Origin: Bacteroidales bacterium
GTDB taxonomy: Bacteria; Bacteroidota; Bacteroidia; Bacteroidales; VadinHA17
Direction: 5' to 3'
DNA length: 43,696 nt
NCBI GenBank assembly: GCA_030596125.1
Contig: JAUVKT010000014.1
Coordinates: forward strand, 1 to 43,696
The notes under the pieces are model-generated. The model did no database searches and was not told the DNA's origin. It saw only the letters and a program-made list of their open reading frames with translations. Below, in pieces: positions 31,047-38,720 of this stretch. Position 1 is the first letter of the stretch. Every line of letters begins with the position of its first letter. A program made the translations under genes and the position numbers.

Positions 31047-32036
31047 TCAATTATTGCACTTTAAAACAGTCTCAATCTGATATTTTGATGCTTCGGCAAA
31101 ATCACCAAACATAGATTTTTTATAACTCGCACAAGCCATTGCACTGTCTCCCAGTATCTGGTATGCACCACCAAGCTCAAAATAAAGTTTTGCCTTTGCT
31201 ACATCATCACTCATGTCAACTTCGAGTGCATTATTAAAAGATGTTACTGCATCTTCCCACTTCTTCTGACCTTTAAGTGCAAGTCCGAGCTGGTAATGAG
31301 TATTTGAATTGTTATTGCCGTACTCAATTGATTTTGAGAGACACTTTTCTGCACCGGCATAATCTTTATTTATCATTTTGGCCTGTGCACTGTTAAAGTA
31401 GGTACCCCTTAACTTTTGCTGAATTTTACTTCCGGATTTTTTATCTCTTGATGATCTGGCAGCCTCAAGACCCATAATTGCTGCTTCCTCCATTTTTACA
31501 AGGTCATTCATCTCTTCGTAAACCAGCACTTTACCAAGATATGCCTTAGCATAACTTGCTTTTCTTCCCAACGCTTTATCGAAATATTCAAGTGCGGCAG
31601 TATGATCTCCCTCACCGAGTGCGTTAGAACCCTGAACGTTCAATATACTTAATGCTGTACCAAAAGCTCTTGAAGCCTGTGATTTATCTCCTGCCTTTTC
31701 AGATGTTTTAATACATGCATCAAGCTTAACTATTGCTTTATCGTAATCTTTCTTCCCGGCGAGTTTTTTAGCCGACTCCCAATACATCTTTGGAATCTGC
31801 TTCATAGCCTGGTCTTTCATATTTGCAGCTTCTTCTCCTTCAACCTGGTCTGCAAGTTTAATTGCTGTTTCAAATGACTTAATAGCCATATCAGGATTTA
31901 CCTTCATCATTTGAACACCCTGATTAAACGCATCTGCAGCCTCTGCCATCTCTGACTGTGCAAACATACTAACCGAAATTCCCAGAATAAAAAGGGCCGT
32001 TAATGTCTTAAGGCCAGTCTTAAGTAATACTCCCAT
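31047..32036 (-). CDS. Exported tetratricopeptide-repeat protein
   Basis: A 329-residue protein with signal peptide MGVLLKTGLKTLTALFILGI (cleaved after MFAQ). At least six TPR-like helix pairs follow, for example AADAFNQGVQMMKVNPDMAI, ALEYFDKALGRKASYAKAYL, SNTHYQLGLALKGQKKWEDA and AKLYFELGGAYQILGDSAMA, which suggests a periplasmic protein-protein adaptor. A TTG-started frame from 32108 would extend past the promoter and spoil the signal peptide, so ATG 32036 is chosen. Partner and role unknown. Confidence 0.85.
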   Translation of the reverse strand: MGVLLKTGLKTLTALFILGISVSMFAQSEMAEAADAFNQGVQMMKVNPDMAIKSFETAIKLADQVEGEEAANMKDQAMKQIPKMYWESAKKLAGKKDYDKAIVKLDACIKTSEKAGDKSQASRAFGTALSILNVQGSNALGEGDHTAALEYFDKALGRKASYAKAYLGKVLVYEEMNDLVKMEEAAIMGLEAARSSRDKKSGSKIQQKLRGTYFNSAQAKMINKDYAGAEKCLSKSIEYGNNNSNTHYQLGLALKGQKKWEDAVTSFNNALEVDMSDDVAKAKLYFELGGAYQILGDSAMACASYKKSMFGDFAEASKYQIETVLKCNN

Positions 32037-32074
32037 AGTAATTAATTTTATATAAATTATATAATAAATTCCTG

Positions 32075-32103
32075 CAAAGATAAACAAATGATCAAGACAC
32101 AAA
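32075..32103 (-). promoter_or_regulatory. Promoter of the TPR gene, Bacteroidota consensus
   Basis: On the minus strand TTTG (32103-32100), 17 bp, then TATCTTTG (32082-32075) matches TTG-N17-23-TAnnTTTG. The box ends 38 bp before the ATG at 32036, and excludes the upstream TTG start at 32108. Confidence 0.6.
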
Positions 32104-32152
32104 AACAAATAAATATTTTAAAACATAAAGTCAGTGTCCAAAAAGCGTACCA

Positions 32153-33817
32153 TTATCTGAAGAGTTCGGTCATTGGCTCCCCTGTACATGCATTAGGAAC
32201 CTGTACCTTACAAAGAGCGGAAAGGGTTGCAGCTACTTCATTCATATTCACCTTCCGGGTAACAGATGACCGGTTAACTGTCCATCCAAACCATATTAGC
32301 GGAACATGAGAATCGTACTCATAAACCGAATTATGGTTAGTCACCCAGATGCCGTTCTCTACCCACCCGGGCTTAAGATTCAAAAATATATCACCCGATC
32401 GCGAAGGATCATAGCTATTCCTGATTTTCCGGTAATGGCCCCTTGTAAAATCATTGTTTTCAATAACTGATGCCGCTATCGCAGAGGAGACTCCTGTAAA
32501 TTGTGTCATAAATCTCGCTGCTCTGTTTTGTATCTCATTCAGATCAATCCTGGCATCCTCAATAAGCATATGATTAAAGTATATCTGCTTTTCATGATAC
32601 CCTTTTACCCAGTTTCCTTGTCCGTAAATTACATTAAGGTAACTTTTTAATAGTGTCAGTGCCTGGTTCTGCTTAAAATATCCGGATGGAATCTTTTTAT
32701 CAGAAAGCACTTCAGGCACTTCAGCCACGCCATGAGCTGATGTGAAATAAATCAAAACATTTTTCTTGCCTACCCTGTCGGTTAAATAATTTATCAGGTG
32801 TTCCAATTCCAGGTCAAGTCTTAAAATTGCATCAGCCATTTCAACCGACGAAGGTCCGAAATTATGTCCAATATAATCTGTTACTGAATAACTTACCGAT
32901 AGAAAATCGGTGATCTCATCAATGCCCATATCTTCTTCTTCAATCAACCTGACAGCAAAATCGGTTGTAAAAGTATTACCCGAAGGCACTTCCCTTAGAA
33001 TTGAATAATCCTTCTCTTTTTTTGAAACACCTGGCAGAGCCGATCTGGTCATCTTCTTAAGATCATATGGGAATACTGACCTGCCCCGGATACCCTTTTC
33101 GTAATTGTTAGTATCGGGAAGACAATCAGCATACTCACTCAGTTGCAATAATGGCTCCCAGCAGCCTGCAAGATATATGTCCGGAAGCATCATTCCGTTA
33201 AATTCTGTCACCCATACCGGCAGTGAATCGAGATAATGGGTGCTGGACATCCAGGAACCGGTCTTGTCGTCAAACCAAAAAGCTGCATTTGCAGAATGGC
33301 CACCCGACAATATTGCCGTATGCTCTTTCATCCCAACAGAAAAAACTTTTGATCTGCCGTTATTTGATAATTTTAGTTCATCGCCAAAAGTGCTCGGCAG
33401 AAGGTTAACAGGTGAGTGCAAACCTCTTTCAAAACTACCTCCTACAGGATCTACATCACTATCTCCGGTACAATAAATGACTTCCTCCCTCAGGGGAAAA
33501 AACCAGTTATCAGAAATAATCCCATGGAACCTGGGATCTGTACCTGTTGCAAGCGTAGCATGAGCCGGTGCCGATTGTGTAAAGAAATAGTCGTATGAGG
33601 CATTCTTGCAAAATGTGCCTTCATATATGAGTCGCCTTAATCCTCCTTCTGAATACTTATCCCAGTATTTATCTATATAATCATACCTGAACTGTTCTAT
33701 TACAATCCCAACAACCAGCCTGGGTTTATCGGGCGGGATATAAGCTCCCTGGGCAATTAACTGTGTTCCTGCCTGTAGTAATATTATCAGAAAAAGTAAA
33801 ATTGACCTGATTTTCAT
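32153..33817 (-). CDS. PafA-like alkaline-phosphatase-superfamily protein with altered active site
   Basis: A 554-residue exported protein. The signal peptide (MKIRSILLFLIILLQAGTQL, IAQ) is followed by the alkaline phosphatase fold of the PafA type. Aligned by eye with PafA, retained positions are S82 (nucleophile place, Thr in PafA; in SAPAH), N104, K164, D314 and H318 (TDYIGHNFGP), H362 and H504 (YDSHVP). Changed positions are D38 to E41 (VIEQFRYDY), R164 to H166 (MKEHTAIL) and D352 to A361 (FTSAHG). Loss of a zinc-ligand Asp and of the phosphate Arg predicts weak or absent phosphatase activity, perhaps a sulfatase/diesterase or binding role. It lies downstream of crcB, separated by an 18-bp palindrome. 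Confidence 0.85.
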   Translation of the reverse strand: MKIRSILLFLIILLQAGTQLIAQGAYIPPDKPRLVVGIVIEQFRYDYIDKYWDKYSEGGLRRLIYEGTFCKNASYDYFFTQSAPAHATLATGTDPRFHGIISDNWFFPLREEVIYCTGDSDVDPVGGSFERGLHSPVNLLPSTFGDELKLSNNGRSKVFSVGMKEHTAILSGGHSANAAFWFDDKTGSWMSSTHYLDSLPVWVTEFNGMMLPDIYLAGCWEPLLQLSEYADCLPDTNNYEKGIRGRSVFPYDLKKMTRSALPGVSKKEKDYSILREVPSGNTFTTDFAVRLIEEEDMGIDEITDFLSVSYSVTDYIGHNFGPSSVEMADAILRLDLELEHLINYLTDRVGKKNVLIYFTSAHGVAEVPEVLSDKKIPSGYFKQNQALTLLKSYLNVIYGQGNWVKGYHEKQIYFNHMLIEDARIDLNEIQNRAARFMTQFTGVSSAIAASVIENNDFTRGHYRKIRNSYDPSRSGDIFLNLKPGWVENGIWVTNHNSVYEYDSHVPLIWFGWTVNRSSVTRKVNMNEVAATLSALCKVQVPNACTGEPMTELFR

Positions 33818-33895: not shown

Positions 33896-34261
33896 TTATA
33901 TTGATTTGGCCAAAATAAATAATACTCCTACCCCAAGTAAAAGACTTACCGCTATATTCGCCACAGCAAAGAAATAGTTACCTGATTTTAATAGCTCAAA
34001 TGTCTCATAGCTGAATGTTGAAAAAGTGCTGAACCCTCCACAGAACCCGGCTATGAGCAAGGCTTTTGTTACTCCTGTCATTTCACCCTTCGAACCCCAA
34101 AAGAAAAGTATCAGACCGAGAATGATAGTACTTATCAAATTTGCAGCCAGGGTACCAACCGGATTGATATGTGTAAAATTGGTTGTTATCGCCCTGGATA
34201 AAATGTAACGGCTTACACTACCCAAACCACCACCAAAGAATATTGCAAATAAAATTTCCAT
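33896..34261 (-). CDS. crcB: Fluoride channel CrcB/Fluc
   Basis: A dual-topology membrane protein of 121 residues that lets fluoride leave the cell. The family signatures are all visible: GGGLGSVSRYILS near the N-terminus, GTLAANLISTIILG (TM2) and GFCGGFSTFSTFSYE (TM3, with the Phe box), plus four hydrophobic segments. A good consensus promoter stands 17 bp upstream of the ATG. No fluoride riboswitch can be recognised in the short leader. Channels of this kind are homodimers, so a single gene is enough. Confidence 0.95.
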   Translation of the reverse strand: MEILFAIFFGGGLGSVSRYILSRAITTNFTHINPVGTLAANLISTIILGLILFFWGSKGEMTGVTKALLIAGFCGGFSTFSTFSYETFELLKSGNYFFAVANIAVSLLLGVGVLFILAKSI

Positions 34262-34347: not shown

Positions 34348-36036
34348 TTATTCAATTATTACCCTTCCGGTGATAATATTTCCGCTTAATATATCCTTAA
34401 CTGTCAGGATATAAAAACCGCTGGGAAGGTTATCTGTTGACAGGGATAAATGATGCTCCTCTCCCGGATTCATTATACAGATCAGAAGCTGCTTGCCAGA
34501 CAGAGTGATAAACGATACCTCACAATTTCCCCGAAACAGTTCGGGAAGATCAATTTCCAGGTAGTTACGGGCAGGGACCGGCCAGATTCGCATACGGGAA
34601 AGTCTGTTTTCTATTATACCCGATGAGGTTTTTATTAATCTGACCTCCCTGAAGAGCTGGACCCTGGCATCAGATACTTCAAAAGTTATGGTTACAGGAT
34701 TATATCCATCGGCAGAAAATGTAAGGTCCCATGAACCGGTATTGATTAACCTGACAAAACTGCCCGTTCCAGGATCAGAATAGATATGAGAACTGTCGGT
34801 GTCATGACCGGTAATAAAAATTTTCGCCATCACAGGATCACCATTATCATCATCTGTCACCCTGCCATGAATGCCATAAAAAGCATTTTCCAGATAGCGA
34901 AGTAACGACCGGTAATTATATTCCCAGAGCAATGGTAGCTGAGCTCCGGCTGTTTGCTTTATATTATCCTGTTCAATGGTCACCTCCCTGCCCTGCTTCT
35001 CATATGTAACATAATCCTGGCGACCGCCAAAAATAACATACCAGGCAGCTCCGCGTGTAATTCCATTGTTTTGGTCAGTAAAATAACCGGTACCAGAATA
35101 ATGCTGAACCGTATCCGCATAGTCCCGGCTGATCTTTTCAAACCAGGGATCATCGGCATGATATGCAGATACCCACCTGTCCCATGGATAGTTAACGACT
35201 TCAGCCCCGGAATGAAAATTGGCCGAAATAACAAAATTATGACCATTCATAAAGTTGATCATCTCAATAGTCTCCTGTGTCTGAACTATTGCGGGATTCA
35301 TAGGGTCGGGAAAATTACGGTTAAGATCAACGCCAATGGCATTGTACCTTGTGGGAGAACTGATAGTGTCACTACCAAGATAGGTGCCATCGGGGTTTGC
35401 CAGTGGATTTATCCAAATCTGCAGGCTGTCAACCAGTTGCTGAACCAGGCCGCCATCTTCAGAATTGATCAGCAAATATTCAGCAAGCTGGAGCATCAGG
35501 ACATAGCCGGCAAGCTCATCACCATGCATGGTTGATGAATAGAAAACTTCCGGTTCATCTTCATCCAGATCAACATTGTCAGATATTTTAAGAGCCAGGA
35601 TAAGATGTCCGTTGATACTTTCACCGATTGTATCTACCCTGCATATACCGGGATAATCGGCAGCCAGCTTATGCATAATAGTATCATACTGCTGATACGT
35701 GGGGTAGACATCCCACTGCATTGCCTCTTCAACGGAAGCTGCGGAAATAACACTTTTGGTTTCTGTTCCGAAGATTACTTTATAGGGGAGGTTAAGTGAT
35801 GTAAAATAGTCAATATCATTCCCCGATAAATATGCTATAACCTGTCCGTCCACAATATTATCGACAGAAATTTGCTTGCCGATCTCAAGGAGAGTGGTGA
35901 AACCCGGATACTCAAACCTTACTTCAACCTGACCATATTTTTCTATTTCCACAGACAGGAGATTCCGGCCAACCTGAGCATTAGCTGTAAGCGAAGTTAT
36001 TATCAGAAAAAATAGAGACAGATATCTTTTAACCAT
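34348..36036 (-). CDS. M14 zinc carboxypeptidase with T9SS sorting domain
   Basis: A 562-residue exported metallocarboxypeptidase. Signal peptide about 1-20 (ending TANAQ). In the catalytic domain (about 110-385), the zinc ligands are H171 and E174 (STMHGDELAG) and H275 (NFHSGAEVVNYP). Substrate-binding residues lie in GVDLNRNFPDP, and the catalytic glutamate probably in REVTIEQ. A carboxypeptidase-regulatory-like beta domain follows (about 390-465, GIHGRVTDDDNGDPVMAKI). The T9SS type A sorting domain is at the end (MRIWPVPARNYLEIDLPE, LPSGFYILTV). It begins 8 bp after ychF and should be co-transcribed with it. It digests proteins at the cell surface or in the medium. Confidence 0.92.
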   Translation of the reverse strand: MVKRYLSLFFLIITSLTANAQVGRNLLSVEIEKYGQVEVRFEYPGFTTLLEIGKQISVDNIVDGQVIAYLSGNDIDYFTSLNLPYKVIFGTETKSVISAASVEEAMQWDVYPTYQQYDTIMHKLAADYPGICRVDTIGESINGHLILALKISDNVDLDEDEPEVFYSSTMHGDELAGYVLMLQLAEYLLINSEDGGLVQQLVDSLQIWINPLANPDGTYLGSDTISSPTRYNAIGVDLNRNFPDPMNPAIVQTQETIEMINFMNGHNFVISANFHSGAEVVNYPWDRWVSAYHADDPWFEKISRDYADTVQHYSGTGYFTDQNNGITRGAAWYVIFGGRQDYVTYEKQGREVTIEQDNIKQTAGAQLPLLWEYNYRSLLRYLENAFYGIHGRVTDDDNGDPVMAKIFITGHDTDSSHIYSDPGTGSFVRLINTGSWDLTFSADGYNPVTITFEVSDARVQLFREVRLIKTSSGIIENRLSRMRIWPVPARNYLEIDLPELFRGNCEVSFITLSGKQLLICIMNPGEEHHLSLSTDNLPSGFYILTVKDILSGNIITGRVIIE

Positions 36037-37343: not shown

Positions 37344-38720
37344 TTGAAACTAGCTTTTATTACAGGCAGTATCCTGATAATATTTTCATTTGTACCGGTC
37401 AGGGCACAACAGGCTGACAAAACAGAAGAAAAGACAAGGATCCTTTTTATTCTTGATTGTTCACAAAGCATGTCGGGGCGGTGGGGAAAAGAAAAAAAAA
37501 TAAATATCGCCAGAAAATTCCTGGGCAGGACGGTTGACAGTCTGGGTACATTCTCAAATGTAGAGATGGCACTTCGTGCATACGGACATCAGAGTGTTGT
37601 CCCGCCACAGGATTGCAACGATACAAGGCTGGAGGTTCCGTTTGCTCCCGGCAATGGGTACAGAATCAAACGCAAAATGAGAGATCTGTTCCCCAAAGGA
37701 ACAACTCCCATAGCAAATTCCCTGGCTGCCTCAGTTAATGATTTTCCACCATGTGATAATTGCAGGAATGTAATAATACTTATTACCGATGGTATTGAGG
37801 CTTGTGACGGAGACCCATGTGCTGTCTCACTTGAACTACAGCGGAAAGGGATTATCCTTAAGCCATTTATTATCGGCATTGGCCTCGATCCTGAGTTTGA
37901 AAAGTCATTTGAATGTCTTGGGACTGTTTACAATGCCTTCACAGAAGAGAGATTTGAAGAGGTACTCGAGATTGTTATAACTCATGCTTTAACCGAAACC
38001 ACACTTCAGGTAAACCTGCTCGATGCATTTGGAAATCCTTCTGAAACCAATGTGCCTCTTACCTTTTACAACAGAAATTCCCGACAGATAAAGTATAATT
38101 TTGTACACACCATGAACCACAGAGGCAATCCCGACACAATGAGAATTGACCCACTGGTAGATTATACAATAAAAGCTCATACAACTCCCCCGGTAATATT
38201 CGACAGCCTTAAACTGGCTCCCGGAAAACATAACATTGCGGCTATCGATGCCCCACAGGGCTCTCTTACCGTAGTTCAACAGAAAGGATACCAATACAGA
38301 AACCTGAAGTTCATTGTCAGATTGACCGGGGACTATAATACATTATGCCGACAGGAGATGTATACAGATAAAAAATATTTAACAGGCAGGTATGACCTTG
38401 AGATTCCGACTATTCCGGCAACCTATATTAATGGAGTAACAATAAAACAAAGCGAAGTAACTACAGTTACATTACCTCAACCGGGTGTAATAACATTTCT
38501 CGTAAATAACAAAGGTATTTGTGAACTTTTTGAGGAAAGAGAAGAGGATATAAAATGGATATACACCATCGATACGAGTGAAAAATCTCACTCCTTGATC
38601 CTTTTACCGGGTAATTACAAGGTGATTTACAGGCCACTTCATTCAAAACAGTCATATTTTACCATTACAAAAAAGTTTACAATTGAGTCTGGAAAATCAT
38701 CATCATTAAGAATCTTCTAA
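37344..38720 (+). CDS. Exported von Willebrand factor A domain protein
   Basis: A 458-residue protein with signal peptide MKLAFITGSILIIFSFVPVR (cleaved after AQ). The VWA domain (about 30-215) has an intact MIDAS metal site: D38, S40, S42 (DCSQSMSG), T120/T121 (KGTTP) and D149 (LITDG). Four cysteines at 137, 140, 154 and 159 in and around the MIDAS could make disulfides. Beta-rich segments follow to the end. The start is TTG at 37344, because a stop lies two codons upstream and no earlier ATG exists. It is followed 34 bp later by an ECF sigma gene. Function unknown; VWA domains bind protein partners through metal. Confidence 0.85.
   Translation: MKLAFITGSILIIFSFVPVRAQQADKTEEKTRILFILDCSQSMSGRWGKEKKINIARKFLGRTVDSLGTFSNVEMALRAYGHQSVVPPQDCNDTRLEVPFAPGNGYRIKRKMRDLFPKGTTPIANSLAASVNDFPPCDNCRNVIILITDGIEACDGDPCAVSLELQRKGIILKPFIIGIGLDPEFEKSFECLGTVYNAFTEERFEEVLEIVITHALTETTLQVNLLDAFGNPSETNVPLTFYNRNSRQIKYNFVHTMNHRGNPDTMRIDPLVDYTIKAHTTPPVIFDSLKLAPGKHNIAAIDAPQGSLTVVQQKGYQYRNLKFIVRLTGDYNTLCRQEMYTDKKYLTGRYDLEIPTIPATYINGVTIKQSEVTTVTLPQPGVITFLVNNKGICELFEEREEDIKWIYTIDTSEKSHSLILLPGNYKVIYRPLHSKQSYFTITKKFTIESGKSSSLRIF

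Follow-up and report, generated by a model that had tools for sequence, protein, structure and literature searches.

Degenerate active sites in exported PafA-fold proteins of the Bacteroidales

The window analyzed here is a 43,696-nucleotide stretch of the Bacteroidales contig JAUVKT010000014.1 (assembly GCA_030596125.1). The gene under study lies on its minus strand, which the original prediction had left unstated. Its open reading frame occupies positions 32156-33817, with the stop codon at 32153-32155, and encodes a product of 554 amino acids. A plus-strand reading of 32153-33817 was rejected, having 29 stops in frame. The gene and its neighbors are as follows:

34351..36036, minus strand: M14 carboxypeptidase, upstream (CarboxypepD_reg match and a weak match to a T9SS sorting tail)
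33899..34261, minus strand: crcB, upstream of the PafA-type gene (context)
32153..33817, minus strand: degenerate PafA-family gene, 554 amino acids plus stop (profile, alignment and predicted fold)
33749..33817, minus strand: hydrophobic N-terminus resembling a signal peptide (residues 1-23), with no lipobox cysteine (by inspection)
31050..32108, minus strand: TPR protein, downstream (context)

The presence of a signal peptide had been considered unusual for a plain housekeeping phosphatase. Among the 156 degenerate homologues described below, however, a crude rule detected a hydrophobic N-terminus in 149 and a lipobox-like motif in 2, so that this feature is not unusual here. The product of the window gene is an exported protein with a PafA fold and a damaged active site, and is probably located in the periplasm.

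The protein passed the cut-off of the Pfam Phosphodiest family (PF01663; 135.2 bits, cut-off 23) and matched the NCBIfam PafA model NF042991 with 578 bits (E = 1.7e-173), under the curated cut-off of 650. It did not qualify as a member of PhoY (NF051873; 178.8 bits against a cut-off of 1000). The closest solved structure by sequence was PafA itself (5tj3; phmmer, E = 1.2e-105). Structure prediction and superposition on PafA had been proposed as a check on the original prediction. The AF2 model, built with 39 sequences (pLDDT 93, pTM 0.90), matched 5tj3 with Z = 62.0 and an rmsd of 1.7 over 514 residues at 35% identity (Foldseek TM 0.90 by query length), and thus has the PafA fold over its whole length. 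The fold is also predicted for L073, a homologue that keeps one of the ten catalytic residues (model pLDDT 86; Z = 48.0 and rmsd 3.6 over 493 residues against 5tj3); a PDB sequence search with this protein retrieved no chains beyond PafA and PhoK.

We examined the active site in the register of the phmmer alignment to 5tj3, using PafA numbering. Ten PafA residues were considered, which make up two zinc sites (with D38 as a Zn2 ligand), a Thr nucleophile, and the N100/K162/R164 set. The alignment places the following residues at these sites:

33695..33697, minus strand: E41, at PafA D38 (alignment)
33572..33574, minus strand: S82, at the PafA nucleophile T79 (alignment)
33509..33511, minus strand: D103, at PafA N100 (alignment and the 5too mutant chain)
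33320..33328, minus strand: K164-E165-H166, with K164 at PafA K162 and H166 at R164 (alignment)
32864..32878, minus strand: D314 to H318, at the PafA Zn1 ligands D305 and H309, both kept (alignment)
32732..32737, minus strand: A361-H362, at the PafA Zn2 ligands D352 (lost) and H353 (kept) (alignment)
32333..32335, minus strand: H495, at the PafA Zn1 ligand H486, kept (alignment)

The window protein therefore keeps five of the ten catalytic residues (K164, D314, H318, H362 and H495), falling short of the full PafA set. Its Zn1 triad (D314/H318/H495) is complete, and in the Zn2 site both aspartates are gone, replaced by E and A, with the histidine retained. The protein may thus bind one zinc ion structurally. 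In substance this agrees with the original prediction, which had listed the replacement of D38 by E41, R164 by H166, D352 by A361 and the nucleophile T79 by S82, as well as the retention of K164, D314, H318 and H362 (opposite PafA K162, D305, H309 and H353). The register of that prediction needed correction at two places. N104 had been read as a conserved N100, but this assignment is off by one: the title of the mutant chain 5too names T79, N100, K162 and R164, and since its changed residue (N100A) sits opposite D103, N100 is in fact lost. The zinc histidine is indeed kept but had been placed nine positions away, at H504; counted along the alignment, H486 of PafA, in a GTTH motif, lies opposite H495, and H504 is another conserved histidine, in a YDSH motif.

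A search of 60 relatives gave homologues in 50. When 295 genomes of the window's order were scanned with the PafA profile, 174 had matches, and 16 of the 295 exceeded the PafA cut-off. We assembled a census of 194 distinct homologues, drawn partly from among the profile matches listed. The number of catalytic residues kept was sharply bimodal: 0 in 4 proteins, 1 in 45, 2 in 46, 3 in 19, 4 in 27, 5 in 14, 6 in one, 7 or 8 in none, 9 in one and 10 in 37. Hence 156 homologues keep 0-6 residues and 38 keep 9-10. Every one of the 156 degenerates belongs to a genome of the window's order, in which they are spread over 56 of the 61 family codes. Among the 166 genomes of the order represented by sequence, 152 gave only degenerate copies, 4 gave both types and 10 gave only intact copies, although three of these last (G272, G122 and G296) have further profile matches outside the census. 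The degenerate active site is therefore not local to the window gene; the loss is order-wide.

The census covers frames of at least 400 amino acids, leaving out, for example, L071, G082, G296:C214 and two G042 pieces. Also outside it are the matches in G155, G227, G322, G113, G065, G095, G224 and G243, and the PafA-type matches G289:C52:1227-2852 and G216:C102:7426-8952, each of which carries one internal TGA. Of the 25 loci taken from a set of genome contigs, 24 were intact, with titles naming Chitinophagaceae, Sphingobacteriaceae, Ignavibacteriae and others, some of them unspecified; the exception, L032, is identical in sequence to the window's relative L004.

The degenerates have lost their sites in diverse ways. 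Neither zinc set is complete in 133 of the 156; Zn1 is complete in 17 (15 of them belonging to the window's family), Zn2 in 6, and both in none. The nucleophile site holds S in 60, T in 25 (S or T in 85/156), A in 12, R in 11, Q in 8, E in 7, and others in the rest. The most frequent residues at the D305 site are G (29), D (28), E (23) and N (22), and at the H486 site H (40), S (26), R (12) and Q (11). Two degenerates, L091 (genome G226) and L092 (G125), pass the NCBIfam PafA cut-off with 660.5 and 653.6 bits while keeping 2 and 4 of the ten residues, respectively.

To place these proteins in a phylogeny, a chosen subset of 33 degenerates and 16 intact proteins was used for a 49-row tree with the catalytic columns removed. 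The 40 ingroup rows formed one clade (support 100/100), and in a 110-row quick tree, in which position 504 had been used for PafA H486, 79 rows formed a clade with an SH-aLRT of 100. Seven intact proteins (L081, L082, L083 and L085-L088) are nested inside the ingroup clade. In the 49-row tree the degenerates formed a single group in 0% of 200 bootstrap trees, although a single loss was not rejected by the AU test (p = 0.132; p = 0.229 with 504 for 495). If loss is irreversible, a 194-row FastTree requires 11 losses, 7 through support of at least 80 and 4 through support of at least 95; with 504 for 495 the corresponding numbers are 9, 8 and 2. The node uniting all degenerates in this tree has a support of 8 (77 with 504 for 495). 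These results favor, but do not prove, repeated loss of catalysis over a single loss.

Other intact copies of the order (L070, L078, L079 and L084) fall in outside PafA clades in the 110-row tree. Four genomes have such an outside-type intact copy alongside a degenerate one, and so seem to carry a separate, probably active, PafA. The window's own genome has a match to a PhoA-type alkaline phosphatase.

Gene order ties two of the nested intact proteins to the window's locus. In the window's family, the M14 peptidase lies directly upstream in 17 of the 18 other genomes examined, in 16 of them after ychF, and in most genomes a GGGPS-PPTase-GldD-like-SSB block stands opposite the gene (GldD and GldE being tentative labels). 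The intact L081 is preceded by ychF and the M14 peptidase, and the intact L087 precedes the GGGPS-PPTase-GldD-like block, as at the window's locus; with these common neighbors, L081 and L087 are orthologues of the window gene. The crcB gene between the M14 peptidase and the PafA-type gene is peculiar to the window within its family. Among all labeled loci, crcB adjoins a PafA-type gene only in the window and in L150, L151 and L158, two of which have an intact PafA and one a degenerate protein. A VWA-domain protein (window 37344-38717), divergent from ychF, is a neighbor in several relatives as well.

A different arrangement was seen elsewhere in the order. We screened 96 loci with long enough flanks (some genomes being represented twice) for lnb and secA, and in all 18 loci checked in which both had been found nearby (L132-L137, L140, L141, L143, L144 and L239-L246; 11 families) the order was lnb (lipoprotein N-acyltransferase), PafA-type gene, secA, as immediate neighbors on one strand. 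Lnb and SecA were identified in sample loci by Pfam and NCBIfam models; both Lnb Pfam domains passed, and the Lnb equivalog model gave 387 and 368 bits, under its cut-off of 550. In L141 (G292) secA is read as two frames of 790 and 326 amino acids, possibly owing to a frameshift. In L165 and L238 lnb is present and secA does not appear in the stretch examined. Only one or two catalytic residues survive in each of the 18 linked proteins, which together represent a distant, strongly degenerate branch. The window gene adjoins neither lnb nor secA, and lnb lies on another contig of the same genome. A role as a T9SS accessory was also considered but found no support, as a homologue is present in 13 of the 18 sampled genomes that gave no SprA match, a few of these 18 being incomplete assemblies.

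Across the 156 degenerates, the ten catalytic sites had a median entropy of 2.86, as compared to 0.68 at 63 further positions where intact PafA is near-invariant (Mann-Whitney p = 3e-6). Since the ten sites are far more variable than these 63 positions, the replacement of catalytic residues is not due to chance. About a dozen of the other near-invariant positions also vary strongly (for example H86, E165 and D502), and some of them sit near catalytic residues in sequence. At the same time, NG86 dN/dS values ranged from 0.06 to 0.17 in eight pairs of degenerates with dS below 1 (for example 0.009/0.054 for L017/L018, 0.012/0.087 for L011/L012 and 0.054/0.932 for L025/L098); for 4 of the 18 pairs, among them both that involve the window protein (P0001), the ratio was undefined. 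Because dS is saturated when P0001 is compared with its closest relatives, the evidence for purifying selection comes from those other pairs and not from the branch of P0001 itself. Loss of catalytic residues together with purifying selection, the combination that marks a pseudoenzyme, is thus found in this family, with the selection observed in relatives.

What the degenerates conserve points to one part of the protein:

32498..32686, minus strand: residues 378-440, a segment conserved in the degenerates and in the nested intact orthologues, and not in outside PafA

Of 14 positions that the 156 degenerates conserve but that vary in outside intact PafA, 11 fall within this segment, which holds 12% of the scored positions (binomial p = 1.6e-8; position 495 was counted here among the non-catalytic positions). 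Among the seven nested intact orthologues, 13 of these positions are fixed 7/7 and the remaining one 4/7. The same analysis with 72 degenerates gave 20 positions, all of them fixed 7/7. Because it is already present in intact orthologues, the segment seems to predate the loss of catalysis, although it could reflect core packing rather than a binding surface.

We consider it probable (roughly 0.7) that the product of the window gene is a secreted PafA-fold pseudoenzyme, kept by selection for a non-catalytic function and belonging to a large, well-preserved family. The original prediction had offered a choice between a pseudoenzyme and an enzyme with a different substrate; the first is better supported. 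The PafA fold is predicted to persist, the two-metal phosphatase site is broken (with D38, D352, N100 and R164 replaced), and the catalytic sites of orthologues have changed in many ways across the order as the protein stayed full length and under purifying selection, presumably retained for a function such as binding or scaffolding. Since segment 378-440 is present in intact orthologues, this non-catalytic function may itself predate the loss of catalysis. With less confidence, the position of the gene between lnb and secA in one branch suggests a function in envelope biogenesis, an argument from gene order that applies to a branch distant from the window gene. A more specific proposal, which we consider rather unlikely, is that throughout the order a constitutive phosphatase turned into a PafA-fold scaffold or client-handling factor working with Lnb N-acylation and Sec export; the 378-440 binding surface would have come first, when the protein was still active, and catalysis would then have been lost repeatedly and independently.

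The window's own subclade might instead be a remodeled enzyme, using a zinc at Zn1, E41, the Ser nucleophile and K164 to act on a diester, sulfate or phosphonate. Indeed, in the 14-member window clade E41, D103, H318 and H362 are invariant, position 164 is K or R and position 314 D or E in 14/14, and H495 is present in 13/14; moreover, P0001 itself retains the S82 hydroxyl, K164, the full Zn1 triad and E41 as a possible metal ligand. However, 27% of all positions are invariant in this clade anyway, which makes such invariance weak evidence. In addition, 4 of the 14 proteins have Ala at the nucleophile position, L008 lacks H495, and position 166 is H in 6, M in 4, N in 2 and S in 2. The suggestion that E41, H166 and A361 are conserved as a group therefore holds among the nearest kin for E41 and A361 (the latter in 12/14, with G once and S once) and fails for position 166. 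Order-wide, E41 and A361 are no fixed pair (29 degenerates combine E41 with D361 and 17 combine it with A361), and all ten catalytic sites drift. We regard a remodeled enzyme as unlikely, although the window's own branch, having kept the Zn1 set, might bind zinc or be weakly active.

Decidedly unlikely, in our view, is that the degenerates serve not as scaffolds but as binders or sensors of a phosphate ester or lipid headgroup, through a kept substrate pocket. The overall fold is kept, and in one branch the gene adjoins that of Lnb, a lipoprotein acyltransferase by family name; but the positions that contact phosphate (K162, R164 and N100) are themselves variable, making a phosphate ligand common to the whole family unlikely. 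That these are decaying former phosphatases heading for loss, with no current function, is very improbable: the ten sites do drift freely and G289 and G216 are interrupted by a TGA, but the low dN/dS values of the eight close pairs, the conservation of the other positions and the finding of 156 long frames without interruption across 56 family codes (frames under 400 amino acids left out) all argue against it.

The pseudoenzyme reading has consequences for how PafA is counted. In PMC8812569, PafA ORFs were kept only when they had the key residues (423 isolate ORFs retained; isolate bank n = 468) and key-residue point mutants were removed ahead of phylogeny, so that degenerate PafA-type sequences would have been dropped there. 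PMC8115612 describes PafA as a widespread constitutive phosphatase, present in 78.7% across the phylum. Most PafA-type proteins that we examined in the window's order are without the catalytic residues, and since even the degenerate L091 and L092 pass the NCBIfam PafA cut-off, counts based on homology can overcall activity. Among the titles and abstract openings searched in the open-access literature, we recognized no description of a degenerate PafA family, and a word search for "phosphatase" gave no occurrence in two papers on the Bacteroidota BAM (PMC12578637 and PMC12611786). The family clearly illustrates how an enzyme fold can be retained for another purpose, with intact and degenerate orthologues available for comparison, and the lnb-secA gene order offers a concrete starting place for its non-catalytic role.

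Among known systems, the window protein is closest to PafA (NF042991; 5tj3), with which it shares the whole-length fold and the Zn1 ligands; it differs in the replacement of D38, T79, N100, R164 and D352, and in its sub-threshold profile score (578 bits, below 650). The fold is also common to the PhoK/SPAP alkaline phosphatases (PDB 3q3q and 5xwk; Z = 43.8 for 3q3q), although identity is 25% and the same catalytic residues are missing from the window protein in the alignment. To the NPP/ENPP phosphodiesterases (PF01663) it is related through the Pfam match (135 against 23 bits) and a fold similarity of Z about 27-30, but identity is only about 12-17% (listed ENPP rows) and the two-metal site of the window protein is broken. 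A parallel in kind is offered by the pseudo-orthocaspases (PMC6426788), a bacterial pseudoenzyme family maintained without catalytic residues. They are an unrelated protein family, and the PafA relatives differ in that the loss extends through the majority of the families sampled in one order, where intact orthologues persist at a related locus.
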